DNA from: Deltaproteobacteria bacterium
GTDB taxonomy: Bacteria; Desulfobacterota; Binatia; UBA1149; JAJCZL01
Assembly (NCBI GenBank): GCA_029262415.1
Contig: JAJCZL010000026.1
Coordinates: 1 to 64,000 of the forward strand
Direction: 5' to 3'
DNA: 64,000 bases
Part shown: positions 58,730 through 62,551 of the stretch, piece by piece
Position numbering within the stretch: the first letter of the stretch is position 1
Layout of the letters: the number at the start of each line of letters is the position of its first letter
Notes under the pieces: model-generated
Seen by the model: only the letters and a program-made list of their open reading frames with translations
Databases searched by the model: none
Told to the model about the DNA's origin: nothing
Made by a program: the position numbers and the translations under genes

Positions 58730-58806
58730 GGTCGCATAGCTCAGTTGGTTAGAGCACTAGCCTCACATGCTAGGGGTCCCTGGTTCGAGTCCAGGTGCGA
58801 TCACCA
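58730..58806 (+). tRNA. tRNA-Val, anticodon CAC
   Basis: GGTCGCA pairs with TGCGATC, then ACCA with encoded CCA. D arm GCTC/GAGC, anticodon arm CTAGC-loop-GCTAG with loop CTCACAT (anticodon CAC), T arm with GGTTCGAGTCC. Reads GTG. The phage-like region begins right after it, so the 3' end could be an integration site. Confidence 0.94.
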
Positions 58807-60567: not shown

Positions 60568-60775
60568 TAACTCCGATAGCTTCTATCGAGTGCTTCTTTG
60601 CTTCGCGATTCTCGCACTCGTGTTCGCGTTGCTGAAAATCAACAGCAGCCGTGAGCGGATTCACAAACAGGCGCAGCAGCTAGAGAGGTGCGCCGTGGTT
60701 TCGGGAGATATCCTCATTCCCAATGTTGTTGTCTGTGAAGGCGACTCGTCTAGGTGTGTTGGGGTCACGTGGTGA
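60542..60775 (+). CDS. Small single-span membrane protein (phage-like element)
   Basis: 77 residues from the ATG at 60542, preceded by GTGs and an AAGGAGG-type sequence; the GTG at 60536 is possible too. One membrane helix (FYRVLLCFAILALVFALLKI) then an RERIHKQAQQLERC helix. Its TGA overlaps the replication gene's ATG by one nucleotide. Confidence 0.58.
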   Translation: MTDLIPEADNSDSFYRVLLCFAILALVFALLKINSSRERIHKQAQQLERCAVVSGDILIPNVVVCEGDSSRCVGVTW

Positions 60776-61884
60776 TGCCTCCCGGAAAGGTCTCAGATCG
60801 TATCGACGGCCTCGTGAAGGCAGCGTTCGGTCGTCAGATCCGTTTTCAGGTCTGCTTCGTCGATGTGACTGGTTCAATTGGTGCGGCGCTCTTCCTATCT
60901 CAGGCCTGTTACTGGCAGACGGCGTGCGGGGTTGGCGAGTGGTGGTACAAGACGGCCGAGCAGTGGTACGAGGAGGCCCGTCTTCCGCGTAAGACCATCG
61001 AGGCCGCCCGTACGTGCTTGCGCGAGCTCAAGATTCTGGAAGAGAGGCGGCCGAAACATCACGGCCCGATCTACTACCGAATCGACTTCGATCGTCTCAA
61101 TTTCATCCTTGGAACCGAGCCAGGAAGAGACGGGAACAGTGACCACGATGGACAGAGGACACTGCCCCTATCGGACACTGATCAGTGTCCCAAAGGGGCG
61201 GTGATCAATGTCCCGAACGGACAGAGATCAGTGTCCAATAAGGGCACTGATCAGTGCCCCAAAGGGACACCCCTAAGGAATAGATGTCTTACACAAGATG
61301 ATCACCAGACTACGACACTAGAGCCGAGCTCTGTCGTTTCGGACTCCGTCCCAGATCGGAAAGAGCCTGAGCCACCAGGTGGGTCTCCAGCCGATCGGCT
61401 GATCCGAGCATTCCGCCGGGGGTTCAATCTCCCGATCTCAGAACCGATCCAGGAGCGCGAACTTGAGCAAGCCACGAGGCTGGCCGAGGAACTCGGTGAG
61501 CGCACCGCTGCGTTCGTCGTCGACCACGCTGTGAGCTCAGGCTCCAAGACCGGATTCAAGCCGAGGGTGTTCGGCGCTGTGTTGGCATACCGAGACGCCG
61601 CGCTGAACGAGCTCAGGGGCCGCGAAGCTGGGGAGCGCCGGCGCCAAGAGGAGCAAGCGAAGCGCGACGCCGACGAAGCCGAAGCGAAGGCCGAGCAAGA
61701 GGCGTTCGCACAGCTCCCGGTTTCCGAGCGGATCAAAATCCGAGTCACACGTCGGACGGTCCTGCAGGCAGGGCTCAAGAACCGGAGCCTAACCGCCGCC
61801 GAAATATCCAAGATCCGGTTCGATATCGAATACGAGGAAAACGAACGTGAACAACCAAACCGAGAGACCAGAGCTGAAGCCTAA
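60775..61884 (+). CDS. Replication initiator-like protein containing embedded iterons (lambda O-like)
   Basis: 369 residues from the ATG at 60775, overlapping the previous stop (TGATG). The N-terminal 115 residues, with FLSQACYWQTACGVGEWWYKTAEQWYEEARLPRKTIEAARTCLRELKILEERR and YYRIDFDRLNFIL, form a winged-helix module like phage replication initiators. Residues about 126-163 are a low-complexity linker whose DNA contains the iterons. The C-terminal part has LEQATRLAEELGERTAAFVVDHAVSSG and a Glu/Arg-rich coiled coil (RRRQEEQAKRDADEAEAKAEQE). This layout, an origin within the initiator's linker, matches lambda O. The primary sequence is not close enough to name it. Confidence 0.72.
   Translation: MPPGKVSDRIDGLVKAAFGRQIRFQVCFVDVTGSIGAALFLSQACYWQTACGVGEWWYKTAEQWYEEARLPRKTIEAARTCLRELKILEERRPKHHGPIYYRIDFDRLNFILGTEPGRDGNSDHDGQRTLPLSDTDQCPKGAVINVPNGQRSVSNKGTDQCPKGTPLRNRCLTQDDHQTTTLEPSSVVSDSVPDRKEPEPPGGSPADRLIRAFRRGFNLPISEPIQERELEQATRLAEELGERTAAFVVDHAVSSGSKTGFKPRVFGAVLAYRDAALNELRGREAGERRRQEEQAKRDADEAEAKAEQEAFAQLPVSERIKIRVTRRTVLQAGLKNRSLTAAEISKIRFDIEYEENEREQPNRETRAEA
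61173..61264 (+). repeat. Iteron array with exact 23-bp period; probable replication origin
   Basis: Four copies of a GATCAGTG-centred unit are in register: their GATC positions are 61180, 61203, 61226 and 61249, each 23 bp apart. Copies 1 (61173-61190) and 4 (61242-61259) are perfect 18-bp palindromes, GGACACTGATCAGTGTCC and GGGCACTGATCAGTGCCC; copies 2 and 3 are half-conserved. A degenerate fifth unit may precede them (61150-61172). Because 23 is not a multiple of three, the protein does not repeat, so the conservation is at the DNA level. This is the layout of initiator iterons. Confidence 0.75.
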
Positions 61885-62551
61885 ATCGAGTCTTGGTGAG
61901 ACCCTGCGGCGCTTACCGAAGGGGTGGAAGAGCGTGATCGACTCTCGTTTCGCGCTGCTCCTCGAGGAGCTCCACATTCCGGATCACTGGTTAGCCCGGG
62001 AGGTCGACGTTGCTCACTCGACAATCTTCCGTATCCGACAGTGCGAGATGAAACCATCCCAGCCCCTCGCCGTGGACATCTGCGAAGTGCTGGGGAAGCG
62101 GTGCGGTTTCCCGCTCAGTGTTGAGGATCTCTGGCCCTATCCACTGCAGCCACGCCGGAAGGGAGCGGCGAAGCGTGTGAGCAGCAAGGCGACGACAAGC
62201 GCCGCAATGGCACTGTTGATGTCTGTGCTGTTGATCGCTTGTGCGCACAAGCCTGTGCAGTTCGACACTGAGCCTGGTGAGGCGGTGGTTGTGTACCAGA
62301 TCGACGACCAGGACGCAGCACGCACAGCCGTGGAAGTGGCTAGAGCGTTCGCTGCGCAGGGGTGGCACTACTCGCTCTCTACTGCCGATGACCTCGGCAA
62401 CGGTGGAATGTGGGTGATCCACAGGCCGGGCAACGAGAAGGCTCACGCGGTCGCGACAGCGCTCAATGCCGACGGCTTGGTGTTCCGCACTCTGCTGCGC
62501 AACGACGCAGCAGCCGACGTTCAGGTCTGGGTCGGTGCACGTGAACGCTGA
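61847..62551 (+). CDS. HTH protein fused to a lipoprotein-like membrane segment and C-terminal domain
   Basis: A 234-residue reading frame starting at the GTG at 61847. Residues 30-100 are a Cro/C1-type HTH (FALLLEELHIPDHWLAREVDVAHSTIFRIRQCEMKP). A hydrophobic stretch with lipobox follows (MALLMSVLLIAC, residues 121-132), then a compact domain (VVVYQIDDQDAARTAVEVARAFAAQGWHYS, ending DVQVWVGARE). Either one membrane-tethered regulator is made, or a separate lipoprotein is translated from the ATG at 62207. It overlaps the replication gene by 38 nt. Confidence 0.65.
   Translation: MNNQTERPELKPKSSLGETLRRLPKGWKSVIDSRFALLLEELHIPDHWLAREVDVAHSTIFRIRQCEMKPSQPLAVDICEVLGKRCGFPLSVEDLWPYPLQPRRKGAAKRVSSKATTSAAMALLMSVLLIACAHKPVQFDTEPGEAVVVYQIDDQDAARTAVEVARAFAAQGWHYSLSTADDLGNGGMWVIHRPGNEKAHAVATALNADGLVFRTLLRNDAAADVQVWVGARER

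Follow-up and report, generated by a model that had tools for sequence, protein, structure and literature searches.

A probable replication origin of 23-bp iterons within the gene of an O-like initiator in a deltaproteobacterial prophage

Results and discussion

An O-like initiator gene at one end of a prophage

The window analysed here, a stretch of 64,000 nucleotides, contains one end of a prophage in which a tRNA-Val gene, small genes, a replication initiator gene, further small genes and a terminase follow one another. The prophage appears to begin just after the tRNA-Val gene (58730-58806), which probably forms its border. On the other side, a small-terminase-like ORF is followed by a GpA-type large terminase (PF05876, PF20454), both at or past the window end; the latter lies at 64359-66308 of the contig (L005) and has a profile match over its length. 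At 66362 the contig ends and cuts the prophage. A search for a repeat of the sequence at the tRNA-Val end, which would mark attR, found none; the prophage runs off the contig, and no integrase was recognised on the part of the prophage that the contig carries.

The initiator gene (60775-61884, + strand) encodes 369 amino acids from an ATG start codon, and the frame is also open from a GTG at 60754. The protein matched phrog_9773, 'replication initiation O-like', over residues 16-153 with an E value of 8.8e-19, and a search of the whole genome confirmed this match. With tblastn, distant matches to phage proteins annotated as O or as replication proteins were also observed. In the AlphaFold2 model, the N-terminal winged-helix domain spans residues 6-116 (encoded by 60790-61122, + strand), with pLDDT mostly above 90 for residues 30-110. 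Together with the phrog_9773 match, this confident winged helix bears out the original prediction, made from the letters of the DNA, that the initiator has a winged-helix N-terminus. The predicted recognition helix comprises residues 72-84, with Lys73 at its start as the second residue. At helix positions that are conserved elsewhere in the family, the window protein diverges (EEARLPRKTIEAA vs EETGLTRYEQEGA).

The following residues 118-198 (61126-61368, + strand) have pLDDT below 50 and are predicted to form a disordered linker. The C-terminal region (residues 205-368, encoded by 61387-61884, + strand) is helical in the model, with helices at residues 205-216, 227-254, 263-312, 316-334 and 341-359, and presumably contacts a helicase or a helicase loader. 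In the fold search, which was done with the full model, the N-terminus retrieved general winged helices only and no family or fold was recognised for the C-terminal region. Among the best fold matches (Z 8.7-9.6) were 4pql, 4pt7, 4pta and 5kbj, which are titled as initiator, Rep-DNA complex or DNA binding protein and which we take to be N-terminal structures of RepA_N initiators. Unrelated winged helices scored equally well, so the fold match is unspecific.

No helicase or helicase-loader family was recognised beside the initiator on this contig, which carries only part of the prophage. The next ORF (61847-62551), which overlaps the end of the initiator gene, gave no match to a helicase loader (P) or a helicase. 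It joins, in a single frame, an N-terminal helix-turn-helix with a weak HigA-like match, a lipoprotein-like signal (LLIAC) and a further domain, and is possibly two genes read as one.

Six dyad iterons in the linker-coding DNA

The iteron array occupies 61140-61269 (+ strand) and consists of six complete units of the form TGNCC-N5-GGNCR. The units start at 61140, 61163, 61186, 61209, 61232 and 61255, and all five steps are exactly 23 bp. Units 1-3 read TGACC-acgat-GGACA, TGCCC-ctatc-GGACA and TGTCC-caaag-GGGCG, and units 4-6 read TGTCC-cgaac-GGACA, TGTCC-aataa-GGGCA and TGCCC-caaag-GGACA. Positions T1, G2, C4, C5, G11, G12 and C14 are unchanged in all six. The 15-bp dyads are separated by 8-bp spacers, mostly CTGATCAG-like, and on these spacers are centred the GATC palindromes (61173-61259, + strand) that make up the second symmetry axis of the array.

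The original prediction had described the repeats along this second axis. The GATC cores at 61180, 61203, 61226 and 61249 are indeed exactly 23 bp apart, and the two perfect 18-bp palindromes (61173-61190 and 61242-61259) and the degenerate unit at 61150 are present. The array that it had placed at 61150-61264 is real but has to be widened to 61140-61269 to hold the six 15-bp units. Any array of dyads with a period of 23 can be read on either of two symmetry axes that lie half a period from each other, and the GATC-centred 18-mers and the 15-mers are therefore one and the same array. Read on the GATC axis, the array has only four intact units, and its ends fall mid-unit on both sides. Because the array starts and stops on whole 15-mers and the core found in relatives agrees, the binding unit is probably the 15-bp dyad TGNCC-N5-GGNCR and not the GATC-centred 18-mer that had been proposed, with the CTGATCAG segments as likely spacers.

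We scored periodicity at a fixed shift, with +1 for a match and -1 for a mismatch. The initiator gene reached a self-match score of 36 at period 23, while codon-shuffled versions of the gene stayed at or below 11-13 over a wide range of shifts. The palindromic 18-mer, with up to 3 mismatches allowed, was found at 3 places within the 64-kb window (0.01 expected); elsewhere in the 3.9-Mb genome there was one site only, with 3 mismatches, on another contig. Since 23 is not divisible by three, the repetition is one of the DNA, as had been reasoned from the start. The array encodes residues 122-165, and the expected location of the iterons in the linker thus holds for the predicted disordered linker.

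Control by Dam or GATC methylation was considered and rejected, as the genome has no match to the MethyltransfD12 family. Clusters of 4-5 GATC sites per 73 bp are also present in other parts of the window, and the arrays of the family contain few such sites (13 in 6.3 kb).

We also noticed that the initiator protein matches the - strand of its own linker-coding DNA (window 61146-61259, E 1.7e-4). This opposite-strand match to itself arises from the palindromic array and could mislead homology searches.

The 23-bp pitch is widespread among O-like genes

The original prediction knew of no described relative in this lineage, but relatives proved to be abundant. O-like genes were gathered from annotated phages and plasmids, from viral contigs and from genome contigs of many bacterial groups. 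When viral contigs were searched with the window protein alone, no confirmed relatives were obtained, and family alignments were needed. For each gene we determined which period from 14 to 40 scored best within the gene, and called an array strong when its score was at least 16.

In the first set of 82 full-length O-like clusters, of which a few recur between collections, as these were counted without prior merging, the best period was 23 in 66 and 22 in 5. Strong arrays with a period of 22-23 were found in 62 of these clusters. A further 59 clusters, independent in that none has an 80%-identical 300-nt match to the first set, had 23 as the best period in 46 cases. A search of related genes for the 23-bp period was the refutation test that the original prediction had set for itself, and the period is overwhelmingly present. 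A strong 23-bp array occurred in 5 of the 175 control ORFs, each 200 aa or longer, that were taken from these loci; all 5 are in or overlap a second O-like gene region.

The core of the family arrays is a TG...CA dyad with an A-rich 5-bp centre and an 8-bp spacer between units. The closest relative found (L002, on contig PIVZ01000001.1, L152) comes from the same order as the host of the window. Its units are of the TGGCG-acaaa-CGCCA type and, as read from the printed sequence, follow mostly in 23-bp steps with one step of 16 bp. Most annotated relatives have a DnaB- or DnaC-type gene directly downstream.

An AT-rich tract follows the array

Directly 3' of the array lies the most AT-rich stretch of the gene (61271-61325, + strand), which is probably a DNA unwinding element, judging from its composition and position. 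The AT-richest 40-nt window of the gene begins 2 nt past the array and is 62% AT, compared with 41% for the gene, and the 50-nt window at this place ranks within the top 0.3% for the gene. The same was seen in 62 arrays of the family, in which the AT content of the 50 nt 3' of the array had a mean z of +1.93 relative to the own gene (null SD 0.13). For the 50 nt upstream of the family arrays the mean z was +0.78.

In L031, L020, L039 and many other O-like genes, the linker 3' of the iterons often encodes TEITTEITT-like residues. This segment carries an A+T-rich 12-bp DNA repeat, which is not evident in the window. The 12-bp repeats 3' of the relatives' arrays are possibly repeats of the unwinding element.

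Residue 73 of the recognition helix and the iteron half-site

We brought the arrays of 68 genes into a common register and set them against the predicted recognition helix. Lys73 went together with a TGYCC half-site in 7 of 9 genes, compared with none of the 59 genes that have another residue at this position. Arg73 was paired with TGGCG in 15 of 19 genes, and the same half-site was found in 4 of the 49 others. Genes with Tyr, Ser, Ala or Thr at position 73 carry half-sites of the TGCGG or TGCTG types. Column 73 gave the strongest association with the iteron type among the winged-helix columns tested, with a z of 8.0, the next one reaching 4.3.

The half-site classes were defined after seeing these data; they were then fixed and tested on newly scanned genes. 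In this independent set, Lys73 occurred with TGYCC in 6 of 8 genes vs 0 of 35 (P 4.6e-6) and Arg73 with TGGCG in 7 of 8 vs 1 of 35 (P 1.9e-6). In the remaining 2 of the 8 Lys73 genes the array consensus was without an exact TGYCC. Both associations kept their significance when the proteins were clustered at 70% identity (Lys 5/5 vs 0/20, Arg 5/6 vs 1/19). The scans for the test set were seeded with alignments of the Lys73, Arg73 and Ser/Ala73 types, which sets how many genes with each residue were collected but not which iterons they carry. The window initiator has Lys73 and its array has TGTCC and TGCCC half-sites, in agreement with the rule. This computational evidence suggests that the encoded domain would read the array within its own gene.

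A replication origin as the best explanation

A prophage replication origin situated within the gene of its own initiator best explains the observations as a whole, namely the array and its pitch, the domain layout predicted for the protein, the AT-rich stretch beside the array, the conservation in the family and the association of the half-site with residue 73. We give this reading a probability of about 88%. The idea of an origin inside the initiator gene, put forward in the original prediction, is therefore well supported, and from the observed features we infer origin activity together with binding, dimerisation, strand opening and helicase recruitment.

In the mechanism that we propose, initiator dimers would occupy the six 15-bp iterons TGNCC-N5-GGNCR through the N-terminal winged helix, and Lys73 of the recognition helix would contact the CC in every half-site. 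At 10.5 bp per turn, the 23-bp pitch would place two helical turns plus about 69 degrees between neighbouring dimers, and owing to this rotation per unit the bound dimers would form a spiral and not a flat row. The dimers would wrap the DNA into a nucleoprotein spiral resembling the O-some of lambda, and the strain in the spiral would open the AT-rich tract that adjoins the array on the 3' side. The C-terminal region would then recruit the host replicative helicase, either directly or via a loader. The protein segment encoded by the repeats would be a linker whose disorder makes it tolerant of them.

The array could instead be an operator, with the winged helix binding only to repress or control its own operon while replication starts elsewhere. 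Palindromes to which dimers bind are a typical feature of operators, and the association of residue 73 with the half-site cannot by itself separate an operator from an origin. However, the array lies about 365 bp into the coding region, away from the gene start, most relatives have an AT-rich stretch after it, and the layout agrees with the proven origins of lambda, SPP1 and pSK41 (PMC7466680, PMC6316719, PMC5703833), which makes an operator improbable. A purpose of the repeats at the protein level, where the linker peptide would be selected for its spacing or flexibility and the repetition of the DNA would be a by-product, is hardly credible. The segment is indeed a predicted disordered linker that tolerates repeats, but a pitch of 23 shifts the frame with each unit and leaves the peptide unrepeated, and we rejected a protein-level repeat for this reason. 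Moreover, the family is dominated by a pitch of 23 and not of 21 or 24, the units are dyads, and their half-site follows a DNA-binding residue.

We also see little chance that the array is a decayed relic, the origin of a prophage that no longer works. Three observations would fit decay: the contig end leaves only a fragment of the prophage in view, a helicase partner gene was not recognised, and the initiator departs from the family at helix positions that are otherwise conserved (EEARLPRKTIEAA vs EETGLTRYEQEGA). Yet the gene is open over its full length, the half-sites are kept in 6 of 6 units, and the downstream terminase gene matches its profile over its length.

Comparison with known systems

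Origins inside initiator genes are textbook knowledge in lambda, and few systems have been studied. In lambda, O dimers bind the iterons inside gene O, one dimer per iteron, and the adjoining AT-rich tract opens (PMC5043065, PMC7466680). As in the lambda origin, the iterons of the window are dyads with a 5-bp centre that lie where the initiator gene encodes its linker, and an AT-rich tract adjoins them on the 3' side. The window differs in carrying six units at exactly 23 bp, whereas lambda has four iterons with steps of 20/24/23, and in its half-site, TGYCC as opposed to CCCTC. P22, mEp213 and a Klebsiella phage likewise have 20, 24 and 23 among their best periods.

The label 'lambda-like' given at first fits the layout but not the protein family. 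Searched against Pfam and NCBIfam at E values up to 1, the window protein gave no match to PF04492 or TIGR01610, while lambda O itself matches them at 5.7e-36 and 5.4e-39. A profile comparison by hhalign with a 7-sequence alignment of lambda O was weak, with a probability of 7.8. Membership in the lambda O family was rejected on these grounds. We assign the window initiator to the O-like family PHROG 9773 and suggest, by analogy, that its origin would work like a lambda-type origin. With the other proteins of PHROG 9773 it shares the layout, the 23-bp pitch, the TG...CA dyad with a 5-bp centre and the AT-rich 3' neighbour. Unlike the usual members, its spacers carry the palindrome CTGATCAG, where others are AACAAGAA-like.

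The layout of a winged helix, a linker encoded by the origin and a C-terminal domain is also that of RepA_N initiators such as pSK41 Rep, which has an N-terminal winged helix, an origin-encoded central linker and a C-terminal partner-binding domain, and whose linker-less proteins still act on the origin in trans (PMC5703833). The window protein had no match to RepA_N (PF06970) in Pfam at E up to 1. A further likeness, going by the published description, is SPP1 oriL in gene 38, an origin within an initiator gene where gp38 binds repeats inside gene 38 (PMC6316719). The intragenic kind of origin is thus already known from lambda, SPP1 and pSK41. In the open-licence papers searched we found neither a rule of a uniform 23-bp pitch nor a code that links residue 73 to the half-site.

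We lean towards the view that O-like initiators form a broad class, found in phages, prophages and plasmids of many bacterial groups, that follows one rule: TGNNN-N5-NNNCA dyads at a constant 23-bp pitch in linker-coding DNA, with the specificity set largely by residue 73 of the recognition helix. The window would then be a divergent member of the TGYCC/Lys73 type. If this is true, the initiator gene alone would predict the position of the origin and the sequence of its iterons. The fixed pitch over a large and diverse family would mean strong selection on the geometry of the initiator-DNA spiral, and the lambda pattern would be one variant of this 23-bp geometry. The link between residue and half-site would amount to a simple specificity code with which origins could be located in uncultivated phages and cross-reacting origins predicted. 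An unannotated prophage gene would also become a defined candidate for a minimal replicon.

Variant arrangements among the relatives

Neither lambda O nor the family profile matched any sequence in the PDB. Beside the common arrangement, a minority of arrays has a 22-bp pitch; these belong to L023, L159, L160, L029 and L051, which comprise Acinetobacter phages and prophages, a Calothrix plasmid and one viral contig. On plasmid and genome contigs of Burkholderiales and relatives (L030, L177, L183 and L198), we observed O-like proteins with two winged-helix domains or tandem O-like genes. In these four, the 23-bp array sits in the second gene or in a long linker.
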